From Caldifarciminota bacterium (GTDB lineage: Bacteria; SDB-A), in NCBI GenBank assembly GCA_016929715.1, contig JAFGIG010000001.1, positions 1-43,483 of the forward strand: a stretch of DNA of 43,483 bases. The letters are read 5' to 3'. Every line of letters begins with the position of its first letter. Position 1 is the first letter of the stretch. This document shows positions 32,981 through 40,228 of this stretch, piece by piece. The notes under the pieces are model-generated. The model did no database searches. It was not told where the DNA came from and saw only the letters and a list, made by a program, of their open reading frames with translations. The position numbers were made by a program, and so were the translations under genes.

Positions 32981-34498
32981 ATGGAAAACGGAATATTCAT
33001 TAATTCATACGACGAAGAACTTCGTGTGGCAGTGATAGAAAACGGAAGACTTTCAGATATATTCATAGAGACTTTCGACAGGAAAAAATTAGTTGGAGAC
33101 ATTTACAAGGGCATTGTAACGCAGGTAAACACCGGTTTAAACGCCGCTTTTGTGGACATTGGCCAGGAAAAAGCCGCCTTTCTGCCCCTGTCCGAAGTTA
33201 TGTCGGATTCCATAGAATTCGATGACGACACTCCTTTGGAAAAACAGCGGCTCGAGAAAGGCAAGGTCATATACCTGCAGATAACAAAATCGCCCATGGG
33301 GAAAAAAGGCCCCAGGGCGACGACTTATATTTCAATACCCGGCAGATATTCAGTTCTCATGCCCGGAAGAAGAATTGTAGGTATTTCTAGAAAAATCAAG
33401 AATCGAGACGAGAAAAAAAGACTCAAAGCTATTGGGCATGAGATTGTCTCAAAAGATTTCGGCATAATTATCAGAACTGAATCCCAGAACAGAACTAAAG
33501 ACGAGATAATCTCCGACCTTGAAATTCTGAAATCTAAATGGATGGAAATCGAGGAACTGTCCAAAAAGAAAGAAGCCCCCGCTCTCCTCCACACTGAAGA
33601 TGAACCTATTTTAAGGATTCTCCGCGATCATCTGCTCGGATCGACCGAACAGCTCGTAATAGACAACCCTCAGCTGTTCAAACAAATACAGAGAAATCTA
33701 TCCTCGACAAACAAATCAGGCGACCTGTTGAAAAAAGTTAAATTATATTCAGAAAAATTTCCTGTATTCGAGTATTTCGGAATAGAAGACGAAATCACAA
33801 AACTGTTCTCGCCGATAGTTCCCCTTCAATCCGGAGCATATCTCATTTTTCAGCACACAGAAGCACTCGTGGCTATAGATGTCAACAGCGGCAGATATTC
33901 GACAATAAACAACCCTGAAGAGCTCGCTTACAAGATAAACCTCGAAGCGGCGAGAGAAATCGCCAAACAGGCGAGACTGAGAAACTTCGGTGGATTAATC
34001 GTAATTGATTTCATAGACATGCAGTCTGAAGAGCACAGAAAATCCGTCAGAGCCGAGTTTGAAAAGCACCTCGCGAGGGATAAAACCAGTTACCAAACTC
34101 TGCCAATAAGCGAATTCGGCCTTCTGCAGATGACGAGGAAAAGGACAGGACCTTCGGTCGTTCAGAATCTGCAGAAAAGCTGTCCTTTCTGCAAAGGATC
34201 AGGGCTTCTTTTCGAAGATTATTACATCACATCATCCATGAAGCGCTGGCTGAGAAATATATCTGTCAAGCTTTCAGGCAAGACGATCCAGATAAGATGT
34301 CCGCGGAGGCTTTACGATTTCATTTCCCATCAACTGTCCTCTTTTTTCACATCACTTTCAAGGGAGAGAAACATAAGCATCGAAACTGTCCTTGACCTTT
34401 CTGCCGCAGGCGATCAGATTACCGTATGGTGTGTCAATGACAACATTGAGATAAGCCTTTGGGACGGAGGTTTCCTGCCGGACATCGAGGTAAAATGA
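32981..34498 (+). CDS. rng: Ribonuclease G/E family endoribonuclease
   Basis: The 505-aa protein has an N-terminal S1 RNA-binding domain (about 36-115), an RNase H-like and 5' sensor region, and the DNase I-like catalytic part with metal-binding D300 (VAIDVNSG) and D343 (IVIDFIDM). The zinc-link CPFCKGSG (C400 and C403) joins subunits, as in RNase E. It lacks the long C-terminal scaffold of E. coli RNase E, so it fits RNase G. It should cut single-stranded RNA in rRNA maturation and mRNA decay. GAGG precedes the ATG. The pairing with the upstream radical SAM-DUF2344 gene is conserved in many bacteria. Confidence 0.96.
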   Translation: MENGIFINSYDEELRVAVIENGRLSDIFIETFDRKKLVGDIYKGIVTQVNTGLNAAFVDIGQEKAAFLPLSEVMSDSIEFDDDTPLEKQRLEKGKVIYLQITKSPMGKKGPRATTYISIPGRYSVLMPGRRIVGISRKIKNRDEKKRLKAIGHEIVSKDFGIIIRTESQNRTKDEIISDLEILKSKWMEIEELSKKKEAPALLHTEDEPILRILRDHLLGSTEQLVIDNPQLFKQIQRNLSSTNKSGDLLKKVKLYSEKFPVFEYFGIEDEITKLFSPIVPLQSGAYLIFQHTEALVAIDVNSGRYSTINNPEELAYKINLEAAREIAKQARLRNFGGLIVIDFIDMQSEEHRKSVRAEFEKHLARDKTSYQTLPISEFGLLQMTRKRTGPSVVQNLQKSCPFCKGSGLLFEDYYITSSMKRWLRNISVKLSGKTIQIRCPRRLYDFISHQLSSFFTSLSRERNISIETVLDLSAAGDQITVWCVNDNIEISLWDGGFLPDIEVK

Positions 34499-34511: not shown

Positions 34512-35900
34512 ATGAACCAAATTGACAGCCATCTCGATTCGGTTAAAGACAATCTGATATCCGACATACAGCTAATGCTGAGAATTCCAAGCGTCAAAAG
34601 CTCTCCCCTTCCCGGAGCTCCTTTCGGAAAGGAAATAGCTTCAGCTTTCGAAACATCTCTTGCCATAGGGAAAAAACTCGGACTCCAAACATTTACTAAA
34701 GACGGCCACTACGTTTTTTTTCAATCCGGAACAAAAGGCACAATGGGCGCAGTTTTATGCCATGTAGATGTCGTTCCGGCGGAAAAGGGCTGGAAACACC
34801 CTCCGTTTTCGGGGACAGTTGAGAGCGGAAAATTATTCGGAAGAGGAGTTGAAGACAACAAAGGTCCTGCTGTCTGCGCCCTTTACGCCCTGTATTTACT
34901 CCAAAAGACAGACAAAATCCGCGGAAGGCTTCGCGTTATTCTCGGAGGTGACGAAGAAACGGGATGGGACTGCGTCGAAAACTACAAAAAGAATGAAGAG
35001 CACCCTGCATGGGCGATAACTCCAGACTCTCAGTTTCCTGTAATATACGCTGAAAAAAATATTTCAAGATTCTCATTTTCAACCCCCCTAAAATCAGACC
35101 TTGTAAAATCTATATCCGGCGGTTCAGCTGTCAACATGGTCCCGGACTGGGCAGTTGCCGTTTTAGACGAAAAAGCGCCTATGGAAACCCTGAAAAAGAC
35201 AGCTCAAGAATATTTCGCCCGAGAAATTTCAATAGAAGAAAAAAACGGAGAAAAGTCAATATCAGCTCACGGCAAATCCGCTCACGCTAGCGTCCCGGAA
35301 AAGGGAAAAAACGCTTTTTCAGAACTTTTCAGTTTTTTAAGCCGTGTTATGCCCGAAGAAGATCCATTCCGCGGATTTGTTGAATTTTACAATGGTTTTA
35401 TTCTCGGTGACCACAACGGCAAAAAACTCGGCGTGTATTTCAAGGACGACGTGTCCGGCGAACTGACATTGAATCCCGGCGTGCTCGAAACCAAAAAAGG
35501 ACGGATCGCCCTGCATATCGACGTGAGATCTCCCGTGACCGTATCTGAAGATGACTTGAGAAAAGCTTTCATGAAGATTCAATATCCGAATATCGAGATA
35601 ACACAAGGTAAGTTCGTCCCCGGACTGCATGTTCCGGAAAATTCCCCGCTCGTTTCTACGCTTTTGGAAATCTACAGAAAAAACACAAAAGATTTGACGC
35701 CGCCTGTGGCAATAGGCGGGGGGACATATGCGAGGGCTTTCAAAAACACAGTGGCTTTCGGCCCTGTGTTCCCCTGGAGAGAGAATATGGCGCATCAGTC
35801 CGACGAATATATGCATATAGAAGACATTTTTCTTTTCACAAAAATTCTCGCCCAATCTCTCTGTGAACTCGACAAAAAATATTCGGAGAAGAAAAAATGA
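34512..35900 (+). CDS. pepV: PepV-like M20 dipeptidase
   Basis: The 462-aa zinc peptidase has the PepV layout: CHVDVVPAEKGW (H84 and D86), RGVEDNKGP (bridging D115), the acidic pair in GGDEETGWD, WAITPDSQFPVIYAEK, and a C-terminal MAHQSDEY with a metal His. A lid domain is inserted in the middle (about 190-330). PepV cleaves dipeptides with a free N-terminus in the cytosol. Its ATG is 13 bp after rng and its stop overlaps the next ATG by 4 bp. Together with the AmgK-like and MurU-like genes downstream, it might act on muropeptide-derived dipeptides. That role is an inference. Confidence 0.9.
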   Translation: MNQIDSHLDSVKDNLISDIQLMLRIPSVKSSPLPGAPFGKEIASAFETSLAIGKKLGLQTFTKDGHYVFFQSGTKGTMGAVLCHVDVVPAEKGWKHPPFSGTVESGKLFGRGVEDNKGPAVCALYALYLLQKTDKIRGRLRVILGGDEETGWDCVENYKKNEEHPAWAITPDSQFPVIYAEKNISRFSFSTPLKSDLVKSISGGSAVNMVPDWAVAVLDEKAPMETLKKTAQEYFAREISIEEKNGEKSISAHGKSAHASVPEKGKNAFSELFSFLSRVMPEEDPFRGFVEFYNGFILGDHNGKKLGVYFKDDVSGELTLNPGVLETKKGRIALHIDVRSPVTVSEDDLRKAFMKIQYPNIEITQGKFVPGLHVPENSPLVSTLLEIYRKNTKDLTPPVAIGGGTYARAFKNTVAFGPVFPWRENMAHQSDEYMHIEDIFLFTKILAQSLCELDKKYSEKKK

Positions 35901-37027
35901 AAAAAAAAATAACAGTTCTCGGTTCAGGTATCGTCGGCAGCCTTATAGCTTCGGAACTCAACAGAGATTATGAAGTCTCCTGCGCGGATAAAAACATCAC
36001 GAGGCTTGAAAAACTAAAATCCTCATCAGGCGTCATATCTCTTGAAAGCGATCTTTCCGATCCGCGCCAGTTGGAAAAAGCGCTGTCTGAAGCGGATCTC
36101 GCTGTAATAGCTCTTCCGGGATCTATGGGCTACAAAACTCTTGAGAGAGTCATCGAAACCGGAACTGACGTCGTCGACATATCTTTTTTCGCCGAAGATC
36201 CTTTCTCTCTCGAAGAAAAAGCCAGACAGAAAGGGGTCACGGCTGTAGTCGACTGCGGTGTAGCGCCCGGGCTTTGCAACATCATTCTCGGATTTCACTT
36301 GCAAAGAGACAAAATCCTCTCCTACAAGTGCCTTGTCGGAGGTCTTATTCAGGCGAGGTTCGCCCCGTTTGAATACAAGTCGGTGTTTTCCCCGTCTGAT
36401 GTAATCGCCGAATACGTCAGGGAAGCGAGGTTAGTCAAAAACGGATCAATAGTCTTTGAAGAAGCTCTTTCGGAACCGGAGAATATCGATTTTGAAGGCA
36501 TTGGCACTCTGACGGCATTTAACACTGACGGACTGCGAACTCTGACAAAAACCGCGGACATTCCTTTCATGTCGGAAAAAACCCTGCGTTACCCAAAAAC
36601 TTATGAATATCTTAAAGTCTTAAAAGACGCCGGTTTTTTTTCGGATATTCCCGTCGAGTTTGAAGGCGCCGAGATAAAACCTTGTGATTTCAGCGACAGG
36701 CTTCTTTCTGAAAAATGGAGAATAGAAGATAACGACAGAGACATAACCTGTATGAAAATATTTATAGAATCCTGTTCAGAAAACGGCAAAGAACTCATAG
36801 AATACACACTGACTGACTACTACGACGAAAAAGAGAAAATCCTATCAATGGCGAGAACGACCGGCTATACCTGCTGTGCGGTCAGCAGACTTGTTCTTGA
36901 GGGTAAAATCAGCCGGAAAGGCATTCTCCCTCCGGAAGAAATCGGCAGGGAAGAGAAAGATTTCTCTTTTGTCCTTGACTATCTCAGAAATAAGGGCGTC
37001 CGGATCAGCGAAAAAAGACAGGCGTGA
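35897..37027 (+). CDS. Saccharopine dehydrogenase-family oxidoreductase
   Basis: The 376-aa protein begins with a Rossmann fold (ITVLGSGIVGSLIASEL, with a GxGxxG-like GSGIVGS at 9-15), followed by DVVDISFFAEDP and VVDCGVAPGLCNIILG, typical of saccharopine and lysine dehydrogenase-like proteins. The C-terminal half is the catalytic and dimerisation domain. Members act on lysine or saccharopine, or on carboxynorspermidine, and I cannot choose between them. It overlaps the PepV-like gene by 4 bp (ATGA), and the next start lies 4 bp after its stop. No lysine or polyamine genes lie nearby. Confidence 0.88.
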   Translation: MKKKITVLGSGIVGSLIASELNRDYEVSCADKNITRLEKLKSSSGVISLESDLSDPRQLEKALSEADLAVIALPGSMGYKTLERVIETGTDVVDISFFAEDPFSLEEKARQKGVTAVVDCGVAPGLCNIILGFHLQRDKILSYKCLVGGLIQARFAPFEYKSVFSPSDVIAEYVREARLVKNGSIVFEEALSEPENIDFEGIGTLTAFNTDGLRTLTKTADIPFMSEKTLRYPKTYEYLKVLKDAGFFSDIPVEFEGAEIKPCDFSDRLLSEKWRIEDNDRDITCMKIFIESCSENGKELIEYTLTDYYDEKEKILSMARTTGYTCCAVSRLVLEGKISRKGILPPEEIGREEKDFSFVLDYLRNKGVRISEKRQA

Positions 37028-37031
37028 AGAC

Positions 37032-38450
37032 TTGACTCAAAGGACCCTTTCGGCAGTTTCTTTGTTCAGGTGTTATTTCGGAGACGAGGCCACTGAATGT
37101 TCCGCGGTCCAATCTACTGACGGCAAAAAGACTGTATTAAAGATAAAATCAGAAAAGCATTCGGCTGCGGCGCTTTTATTTTCATCGAAAAAGGAAGCCG
37201 AGGTTTTTTCATACATCACCGACATATTTATAAAATCCGGCGTCAGGGTTCCGGAAATATACTTTTCTGACCGAGAAAAAAATATTTTACTCTGCGAAGA
37301 TGCGGGAGAGGAATCTCTCTTTGTAAAAACGAGCTCTCTCTCAGAGACGACTGAAAGGCATATTTTTATGTCGCTTTTCACCAAAGCGCTTGATTTTCTC
37401 CGCCTGATGCAGACCGAAGTCGCCAAGAGAATAGACTATTCAAAATGCTGGCCCGTCAGGCAATTTTGCAGGAAGTCCGTCTCTTGGGACTTAGATTATT
37501 TCAAATACTGTTTCCTCAGGCTTCTTAACATATCTTTTGATGAAAGCTCTCTTGACAAAGACTTCATTCGGCTCAGTTCCCTTTTTATGAAAATACCGCA
37601 AGAGTTTTTCGTTCACAGAGATTTCCAATCGAGAAATCTTTTCTTAAAAAACGGCGAGTTGTTGGTAATAGACTACGCGGGGGGCAGAAAAGGACCTATG
37701 CAATACGATGCCACTTCGCTTATACACCAGACGAGAGCTGCAATATCTAAAGAGGAAAGGGAAAAACTTATAGATTATTACGTTAAAATAGCGGAATCGG
37801 AACTAATGGATAAACCTTCTTTTGTCAGAGAAGGGTTTCTTGTTTGTGCCCTTTTAAGGCTCCTTCAGAACCTCGGAGCATACGGGCTCAGGGGCTTTCA
37901 CGAACAAAAAACCCGTTTCAAAAACTGCGTTATACAGGCTATAGAAAATGCCCTCGGAATAATAGACGAGCTGGATAAAAAGTCATTTCCGCATATAACG
38001 GAGGCTCTTAAAAAATCCAGAAACGCCGCCTTTTTACTTGTCCCCTCAACCGTAGAGGGTTCACTTACAGTCAGGATAAAGAGTTTTTCATACAAAAAAG
38101 GCATACCCAGAGACTTGAGTGTCCACGGAGGAGGTTTCGTCTTCGACTGCCGGCATCTTTCAAACCCGGGCAGAATCTCCAGGCTTGCGCATTTATCCGG
38201 AAAAGACCCTCTTATTGCTCATTTCATTGAAAAAGACCCGCGTTTTGATCTTTTCATGGGAAACGTCCGCGAAATCATCCATTCTGCCGTTGAAAACTAT
38301 CTCGAAAGAGGATTCGAACACCTCGACGTTTTCTTCGGATGCACAGGAGGAAGACACAGATCTGTCTTTTGCGCCGAAAAGCTTAAAGAGTCATTGTTGG
38401 AAAAAAAAGAGCTGAAAGTCCAGCTCTTTCACTCTGAAGAAGAAGCATGA
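37032..38450 (+). CDS. AmgK-type sugar kinase fused to a RapZ C-terminal domain
   Basis: From a TTG at 37032 the protein is 472 aa. An in-frame ATG at 36876 would overlap the upstream gene by 152 bp. The N-terminal part is an APH/ChoK-like kinase with HRDFQSRN (195-202) and the metal-binding VIDY (D214), like AmgK, the anomeric MurNAc/GlcNAc kinase. The C-terminal part (about 345-458) matches the RapZ regulatory domain, with VHGGGFVFDCRHLSNPG, DLFMGNVREII and GCTGGRHRS (436-444). RapZ uses this domain to bind glucosamine-6-phosphate. The RapZ P-loop domain is missing. A MurU-like gene follows at 1 bp. I infer a recycling kinase with a built-in amino-sugar sensor. Confidence 0.9.
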   Translation: MTQRTLSAVSLFRCYFGDEATECSAVQSTDGKKTVLKIKSEKHSAAALLFSSKKEAEVFSYITDIFIKSGVRVPEIYFSDREKNILLCEDAGEESLFVKTSSLSETTERHIFMSLFTKALDFLRLMQTEVAKRIDYSKCWPVRQFCRKSVSWDLDYFKYCFLRLLNISFDESSLDKDFIRLSSLFMKIPQEFFVHRDFQSRNLFLKNGELLVIDYAGGRKGPMQYDATSLIHQTRAAISKEEREKLIDYYVKIAESELMDKPSFVREGFLVCALLRLLQNLGAYGLRGFHEQKTRFKNCVIQAIENALGIIDELDKKSFPHITEALKKSRNAAFLLVPSTVEGSLTVRIKSFSYKKGIPRDLSVHGGGFVFDCRHLSNPGRISRLAHLSGKDPLIAHFIEKDPRFDLFMGNVREIIHSAVENYLERGFEHLDVFFGCTGGRHRSVFCAEKLKESLLEKKELKVQLFHSEEEA

Positions 38451-38451
38451 A

Positions 38452-39177
38452 TTGAAAGCGATGATACTGGCGGCGGGTCTGGGCGAAAGACTCAAACCGC
38501 TGACCTTAAAAACTCCGAAAGCTCTCGTTAAAATAAGGGGAATCCCCCTTATTGAAATCGTAGCTCGAAAGCTCATATCTGCGGGTTTTAACAAAATCGC
38601 AGTCAACGTCAACCATTTCGCCGATGAAATAGAGGAATACATTCGTTCCAAAAACTCTTTCGGCGCTGAAATCTTCATATCCCGGGAAATCTGCCGGCCT
38701 CTCGGAACCGGTGGAGGTGTTTTTTGGGCTAAAGATTTTTTAAAAGAAGAAGAAAGTTTTCTCATCCACAATGTGGACATAATATCGGACACAGATCTTG
38801 ACGGGCTCTATAATTATCACCAAAAATCCGGCAACGCTGCGACTCTTTCAGTCAAAAAAAGAAACACGTCCAGAATGCTTTTATTCGGAAGGGACGGCTT
38901 TTTACGGGGCAGGAAAACAGAAAAAGACCCCTTAAACACGGACTCTTTGAGAGAATTCGCTTTTTCGGGAATACACTGCGCAAATTCAGCGATATTTGAT
39001 GTTGCGCCGCCAGAGGAAGTATTTTCAATAATTGACTTTTATCTTTCTCTTAAGTTTTCAGGTAAAATCGGATTTCTTGAAGACAGAGGAAAAATCTGGT
39101 TCGACGCCGGCAAAAAAGATTCTCTTTCCCTACTTCAAAAATCAGATATCTTCAGCTTGAGTAAAATCTTCGATTAG
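38452..39177 (+). CDS. murU: Nucleotidyltransferase, MurU-like
   Basis: The 241-aa protein opens MKAMILAAGLGERLKPLTLK, the sugar-phosphate nucleotidyltransferase signature, and matches the start of MurU, which makes UDP-MurNAc from MurNAc-1-phosphate. Also seen are TPKALVKIRGIPLIE, GTGGGVFWAKDF and FLIHNVDIISD. The TTG at 38452 is taken as the start because it gives the family's MKAMILAAG beginning and lies 1 bp after the kinase stop. The neighbouring AmgK-RapZ fusion supports a MurNAc role, but a mannose-1-phosphate or glucose-1-phosphate enzyme cannot be excluded. Its 3' end overlaps the opposing HAD gene by 36 bp. Confidence 0.85.
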   Translation: MKAMILAAGLGERLKPLTLKTPKALVKIRGIPLIEIVARKLISAGFNKIAVNVNHFADEIEEYIRSKNSFGAEIFISREICRPLGTGGGVFWAKDFLKEEESFLIHNVDIISDTDLDGLYNYHQKSGNAATLSVKKRNTSRMLLFGRDGFLRGRKTEKDPLNTDSLREFAFSGIHCANSAIFDVAPPEEVFSIIDFYLSLKFSGKIGFLEDRGKIWFDAGKKDSLSLLQKSDIFSLSKIFD

Positions 39178-39792
39178 AGCTCTTATTTGCATGGGTTTCT
39201 CGACGCTATATTCTGCGCCTTCTATTTCTTTTCTCCCGAATCCATAGAGCGCCCCGATAAAGACAAGATAATTTTCATTAGCCGCCGTCATGTCGTGCGA
39301 CCTGTCCCCTATCATAAATCCTATTCCAGGACTAAATTTGTTTTTTATTTCTCGCAGCATCATAGTTTTGTTTTCTGAACCTTTGGGAACCCTCAGAGCT
39401 GAAAACATAGTTAAGAGATTGAACTTTTCCAGCACGGTATTTAAGTATATTTCAGTAGCGTTTGAACAAACCGCGAGGTTAAAATCCTGTTCTTTTAGCC
39501 AGCCGAGGAGGGGAATAACACCTTCATACAGTTGTCCGTCTCTCTCAACAGCCCCGAGTTCGGCTCCTTGAAATTCTCTGTATAGAATATGGGCGGGCTT
39601 TTCAGCGTTTAGCATTTTCAGCCACCGGATAAAAACACTGTCCGGTTCGCCTATGAAGCGAAATAAAAACTCGTCCTCGGGAACTGCCAGTCCGTTTTCC
39701 TTGAGCAGGGATTTTACCGCCGGCATGAAAGATGTTTCGGATCTGTAAAGAGTCCCGTCCATATCGAATACGGCCAGCTTATTTGATGACAT
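39142..39792 (-). CDS. HAD-family phosphatase
   Basis: The 217-aa protein (start at 39792) belongs to the Gph-like HAD phosphatases. Motif I is VFDMDGTLY (nucleophile D10 and acid D12), motif II AVCSNA, and motif IV GFMIGDRSHDMTAA. A helical cap lies between them. The ATG at 39792 is chosen because it follows the stop of the GNAT gene by 1 bp. A TTG at 39822 or an ATG at 39801 is also possible. It converges on the MurU-like gene with a 36-bp overlap of coding ends. In Pseudomonas a HAD phosphatase, MupP, removes phosphate from MurNAc-6-P in the AmgK-MurU pathway, so a similar role is possible but unproven. Confidence 0.88.
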   Translation of the reverse strand: MSSNKLAVFDMDGTLYRSETSFMPAVKSLLKENGLAVPEDEFLFRFIGEPDSVFIRWLKMLNAEKPAHILYREFQGAELGAVERDGQLYEGVIPLLGWLKEQDFNLAVCSNATEIYLNTVLEKFNLLTMFSALRVPKGSENKTMMLREIKNKFSPGIGFMIGDRSHDMTAANENYLVFIGALYGFGRKEIEGAEYSVEKPMQIRALIEDFTQAEDI

Positions 39793-39793
39793 A

Positions 39794-40228
39794 TCAGACA
39801 TCGCCCGAAGGTTTTTTGACAAAATATTTAATATGGTCCTTCAAAGAGTAGCCCTTTTTTTCAAAAACTTTCTTGGACCTTTCGTTTTCACCGTCTATCA
39901 GGCACGCGTAAACTTTTATCTTCATCTTGAAAAACCAATGCTCCGCTTCTTCGATGAGGATGCCGGCAATTCCTTTTCCCTGAAAAAGAGGGTCCACGGC
40001 GAGCCTGTTGACCCATCCTTTTCTCCCGTCGTGAGTCGCAAAGACGCTTCCAATTATCTTTCCATCTGATTCCGCGACGAGATAGTTTGTGTTGCCGAGT
40101 TTGGACTGTCTGTAAGTCTCTTCATCGGCGTCTCTTCCCTTTGTTTTAAACGGAAGTCCGCTTTTCTCCCAGAGAAGTATCAATCCCTCGTAATCGCTTT
40201 TTCTGTATTTTCTTATTTTCATACTCAA
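39794..40228 (-). CDS. GNAT-family N-acetyltransferase
   Basis: The 144-aa protein has the acetyl-CoA-binding motif A in NRLAVDPLFQGKGIAGILIEEAE (Q/RxxGxG/A as QGKGIA) and motif B near the C-terminus (AERSKKVFEKKGYS). It transfers acetyl from acetyl-CoA to an amine that cannot be named from sequence. The TTG at 40228 is favoured over the ATG at 40222 because AGGAG (40235-40239) sits 6 nt from it. It starts a two-gene minus-strand unit with the HAD phosphatase, driven by the promoter at 40248-40276, and diverges from the glutamate dehydrogenase gene. Confidence 0.9.
   Translation of the reverse strand: MSMKIRKYRKSDYEGLILLWEKSGLPFKTKGRDADEETYRQSKLGNTNYLVAESDGKIIGSVFATHDGRKGWVNRLAVDPLFQGKGIAGILIEEAEHWFFKMKIKVYACLIDGENERSKKVFEKKGYSLKDHIKYFVKKPSGDV

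Follow-up and report, generated by a model that had tools for sequence, protein, structure and literature searches.

What does the C-terminal domain of RapZ, the sRNA adaptor protein of E. coli, do at the end of a chain whose first half resembles the MurNAc kinase AmgK? This question is raised by one gene in the 43,483-nt stretch of Caldifarciminota DNA analysed here (the window), which a preliminary description had presented as a kinase with an HRDFQSRN motif, joined to a RapZ domain with a GCTGGRHRS loop and ending 1 bp before a MurU-like nucleotidyltransferase gene. Both motifs and the spacing could be confirmed (Table 1), as could a convergent HAD gene, whose 3' end overlaps the 3' end of the MurU-like gene. 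The fused reading frame runs without interruption and matches first the APH kinase family (PF01636, E 2.9e-6) and then the RapZ C-terminal domain, the latter with 110 bits against a cut-off of 27, while the AlphaFold model of the protein is confident along its whole length (mean pLDDT 92.1, pTM 0.81). An origin of the fusion as an assembly artefact could be ruled out, since the same fusion with an adjacent nucleotidyltransferase (NTase) gene is present in all four genomes of the source phylum that were examined and the fusion is also found in distant genomes.

Table 1. Genes and sequence features around the fused gene, in window coordinates.
Feature	Position	Strand	Remarks
AmgK-type kinase + RapZ C-terminal domain fusion	37032..38450	+	472 aa, TTG start
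Kinase domain, about residues 1-336	37032..38039	+	Z 30.6 to 3csv; NF045759 E 6.8e-12
HRDFQSRN catalytic motif	37614..37637	+	R196, D197, R201, N202 invariant in 72-row alignment
RapZ C-terminal domain, residues 346-469	38067..38438	+	PF22740 E 1e-31; Z 20.4 to 5o5s
GCTGGRHRS anion loop, CX5R(S) pattern	38337..38363	+	C, H, R, S invariant in 84/84 fusions and 7/7 canonical RapZ
MurU-like sugar-1-phosphate nucleotidyltransferase	38452..39177	+	241 aa, TTG start; NF045761, NF045697
HAD-family hydrolase, convergent	39142..39822	-	near fusion in 4/4 genomes of source phylum only
GNAT acetyltransferase	39794..40228	-	accompanies HAD gene in source phylum
Saccharopine-dehydrogenase-like gene	35897..37027	+	ends 4 bp upstream of fusion
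Sapep/PepV-type dipeptidase	34512..35900	+	member of same closely packed gene run as fusion
RNase E/G-family gene	32981..34498	+	first gene of run containing fusion

The assignment of the kinase half to the AmgK type, as originally proposed, is borne out by model matches and by fold. All 72 fusions that were scanned matched the AmgK model NF045759, 70 of them also matched NF045698, and no kinase model outside AmgK, LicA included, was found among them at E 1e-5; a clustering with non-sugar kinases, named beforehand as an outcome that would speak against the reading, was thus not seen. For the window's own kinase, the AmgK score is 45 bits and stays far below the curated cut-off of 550 at which an equivalog is called, so that the kinase half, as judged from sequence, belongs to the wider family on a distant AmgK branch and is no called equivalog. 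In a structure search, the nearest solved structure was 3csv, aligned over 307 residues, followed by corramycin kinase (Z 27.1) and choline kinases (Z about 20), which places 3csv about 10 Z units above LicA. The aligned stretch of 3csv is itself AmgK by NF045698 (E 5.7e-79).

The neighbouring NTase gene scores best with two MurU models (NF045761, 121 bits, E 6e-35; NF045697, 86 bits) and reaches 71 bits with the best model outside MurU, the 121 bits again lying far below the curated cut-off, here 250, of a MurU equivalog. Its best matches in the PDB include MurU 4y7t and the 8hhd/9smv group. It had been suggested to look for the same fusion beside murU in other genomes, and in a comparison of 84 loci, four from the source phylum and 80 others, the NTase turned out to be the only broadly conserved neighbour: a co-directional NTase gene is no more than 700 bp away from the fusion at 52 loci and no more than 150 bp at 40, frequently with a 4-bp overlap. 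The second outcome that would have spoken against the reading, fused homologues never standing beside MurU-like genes, was likewise not seen. The MurU neighbour is missing at 29 of the 84 loci, partly because contigs end there and partly because MurU is located elsewhere, as in Mariniphaga and Draconibacterium, where the best MurU match sits away from the fusion. Distances between kinase, RapZ and MurU sequences are correlated in Mantel tests (r 0.52-0.59, P 0.001), which shows a shared history of the three and says nothing on their interaction.

Relatives of the fusion are encoded at no fewer than 527 places in public genomes, as counted in a scan of named genomes. The best 80 of these at least 527 places all span both the kinase and the RapZ domain and stem from Bacteroidota, Elusimicrobia, Neomarinimicrobia, KSB1, Ignavibacteria/Chlorobiota, Gemmatimonadales, Terriglobia and others. 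The fusion is common in Bacteroidetes-like bacteria and hence not peculiar to the source genome. Within the Tannerellaceae, it was found in 43 of 46 genomes, one of the 43 copies (G090:C176:3886-5281) being broken by a stop. In this copy, the kinase and RapZ halves appear as two adjacent matches with the stop within the second, and the three members of the family that lack the fusion (G048, G049 and G086) have MurA, possibly a clean loss series.

It is within this family that gene content comes closest to an experiment. Tannerella forsythia lacks murA, murB, glmS and glmU, is auxotrophic for MurNAc and carries MurNAc to UDP-MurNAc-pentapeptide even without its MurNAc 6-kinase (PMC5790795), and in later publications its route from MurNAc to UDP-MurNAc is assigned to AmgK and MurU (PMC7670621). 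MurA is present in 45 of the 46 Tannerellaceae genomes, the sole exception being G084, and of 12 genomes compared with a published T. forsythia primer, G084 is the only one that matches, with two mismatches at bases that we take to have been engineered for cloning. This genome encodes a single fusion, which is its only match to the AmgK models, and its best MurU match overlaps the fusion by 4 bp, an arrangement of kinase and NTase genes as in the locus studied here. Since MurA is missing, the fusion is the only AmgK match and the best MurU match overlaps it, fusion and MurU are likely to carry MurNAc to UDP-MurNAc in T. forsythia, by elimination from gene content. Taken together, the matches to AmgK and RapZ models, the conserved linkage to MurU and the gene content of T. 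forsythia support the original proposal of a MurNAc salvage module well.

In the source phylum itself, MurA was found in the source genome (G000), where the end of a contig truncates it, and in G001, and no MurA was found in G002 or G003, whose stated completeness is 100% and 98%. The latter two genomes keep the fusion and MurU; they may be bound to salvage MurNAc, as T. forsythia is, or their assemblies may have a gap. AnmK is absent from all four genomes, and searches for MurQ gave weak matches only, resembling related SIS domains; there is therefore no recognisable source of MurNAc-6-phosphate and no clear need for a MupP. The HAD gene had been taken as the counterpart of MupP, a part of the proposal that found no support and that we reject: the protein scores as a generic HAD enzyme, with a phosphoglycolate-phosphatase type model (E 5.5e-15) ahead of the MupP model (E 2.4e-4), in a phylum without AnmK and with only SIS-like MurQ matches. 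Like the GNAT, dipeptidase and RNase E/G genes, it accompanies the fusion in all four genomes of the phylum, in the fourth at a distance of 3 kb. At the other 80 loci, no linkage of HAD, GNAT or RNase E/G genes to the fusion was found, and the dipeptidase gave weak matches there only. It should be noted that the RNase E/G gene lies within about 5 kb of the fusion in each of the four genomes (the window, L087, L088 and L089), and that in E. coli RapZ works together with RNase E. The proximity may be due to chance, since none of the other 80 loci shows it.

Turning to the RapZ half, its predicted structure superimposes on the C-terminal domain of E. coli RapZ (RapZ-CTD, 5o5s) with 1.4 A over 123 residues. 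Shared with E. coli RapZ and B. subtilis YvcJ are the fold, the GCTGGxHRS loop and the residues D182, R184, N188 and P189, and the equivalents of C247, T248, G249, G250, H252, R253 and S254 are kept in 83-84 of the 84 fusions and in all seven canonical RapZ sequences. In contrast to these proteins, the fusion lacks both the N-terminal P-loop domain and the basic C-terminal tail, and it features a GGG insert before FVFDCR that is common to the fused domains. Of the residues that contact RNA in E. coli, R184 and mostly K170 are retained, R238 is replaced by Phe in 82/84 and K251 by Gln in 68/84 fusions, and others vary. The pocket residue H190 is a Gly in every one of the 84 fusions; as position 190 varies in canonical RapZ as well (H, Y, N or F), its loss was dropped as an argument against binding of GlcN6P. 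On the whole, the conserved residues give the RapZ half the appearance of a pocket for anions or sugar phosphates from which the sRNA-adaptor surface is missing. In a tree of this domain, which has few columns, a single branch with a support of 100/99 separates the 84 fused from the seven canonical sequences, and a single origin of the fused domain would be the simplest reading of it.

The N-terminal P-loop domain of canonical RapZ (PF03668) was not found elsewhere in the four genomes of the source phylum, and of 42 other fusion genomes it is missing from 35. The remaining seven, six Elusimicrobia (L008, L012, L024, L027, L029, L042) and one member of the Terriglobia (L068), carry canonical RapZ next to the fusion, so that a simple replacement of RapZ by the fusion is no general rule. 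In such genomes, the two domains could be compared inside one cell.

What the RapZ half contributes can be approached from its possible ligand. The preliminary description saw in it a specific sensor of GlcN6P, through which the amino-sugar level would gate the kinase, and the reported binding of GlcN6P by the E. coli RapZ-CTD (PMC7073468), the match in fold and the retention of the anion-loop residues fit this proposal. The exchange of H190 is neither proof nor exclusion, the GlcN6P site of E. coli RapZ is itself described as uncharacterised (PMC9841335), and T. forsythia retains the RapZ domain although it has no glmS; we therefore regard specificity for GlcN6P as possible but rather doubtful; most likely, a sugar phosphate of some kind is sensed by the domain or tunes the protein. 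The loop also admits a catalytic reading, in which the domain is a cysteine phosphatase that has a sugar 6-phosphate, for instance MurNAc-6-phosphate, as its substrate, feeds the kinase and replaces MupP. Its C-X5-R-S pattern is flanked by a strand and a helix in the predicted structure, as in PTPs, a likeness to the PTP loop and a possible hydrolysis of GlcN6P have been proposed before for the RapZ-CTD (PMC7199280), and in E. coli RapZ the C247S exchange abolishes activity while GlcN6P appeared chemically transformed in the crystal (PMC9841335). Moreover, nine fusion genomes possess AnmK and lack a strong MurQ match, and MurNAc-6-phosphate would need an outlet there. Against this, no PTP fold is among the best 50 structural matches of the RapZ half, where phosphofructokinases lead the matches outside RapZ (Z 6.6); the source phylum and the fusion-bearing Tannerellaceae genomes that were tested keep the fusion without any AnmK, and canonical RapZ bears the same loop with no kinase partner. 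We consider a phosphatase distinctly improbable. If it were one, a single bifunctional chain would do the work of MupP and AmgK, taking the 6-phosphate off MurNAc-6-phosphate or a related amino-sugar phosphate and then phosphorylating C1, and canonical RapZ would be a sugar phosphatase or the descendant of one, a consequence no more probable to us than the premise.

It is also conceivable that the domain merely assembles the kinase into dimers or tetramers, as the isolated E. coli RapZ-CTD forms a swapped dimer (PMC5737377). Oligomerisation by itself would not explain why C, H, R and S of the anion loop are unchanged in all 84 fusions, which makes a purely structural role unlikely. A departure from wall metabolism altogether would be a pair of choline kinase and cytidylyltransferase, as in LicA/LicC, or another sugar-1-phosphate route with no role for MurNAc: the same two superfamilies do form such pairs and choline kinases share the fold of the kinase half. 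With neither LicA nor any other rival model matched by the 72 fusions and with 3csv well ahead in the structural ranking, this reading was rejected, and the distribution in T. forsythia also argues against it, leaving it a very small chance.

We propose a model, which we hold to be probable, in which an AmgK-family MurNAc kinase and its MurU-like partner carry out UDP-MurNAc salvage and the RapZ half tunes or oligomerises the kinase. The kinase half would phosphorylate MurNAc, and probably GlcNAc too, at the anomeric position, and the adjacent MurU-like enzyme would convert the resulting MurNAc-1-phosphate to UDP-MurNAc, bypassing MurA and MurB. AmgK accepts GlcNAc as well as MurNAc, and the main product could therefore be UDP-GlcNAc. 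The RapZ half would most likely bind a sugar phosphate or another anion via its invariant GCTGGxHRS loop and would not act as an sRNA adaptor in the manner of E. coli RapZ. For the source organism, we infer the substrate, the identity of the ligand and its effect on the kinase.

The kind of system is already known: AmgK-type kinase and MurU-type nucleotidyltransferase are shared with the salvage route of Pseudomonas and Caulobacter, which, unlike the fusion, has an AmgK without RapZ domain and additionally includes MupP and AnmK, neither of them recognisable in the source phylum. In the accessible literature, we found no paper that discusses the AmgK-RapZ architecture or mentions RapZ together with AmgK. 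The fusion would be the standard AmgK of Bacteroidota-like bacteria and of some other phyla, and in T. forsythia it pinpoints the exact gene without which wall synthesis should stop. It furthermore offers a simple one-protein setting for ligand binding or hydrolysis by a RapZ domain. Across a group of phyla, and mostly in genomes without canonical RapZ, a RapZ-type domain thus rides on a kinase of MurNAc salvage, which suggests that the older role of the RapZ C-terminal domain was a metabolic one.
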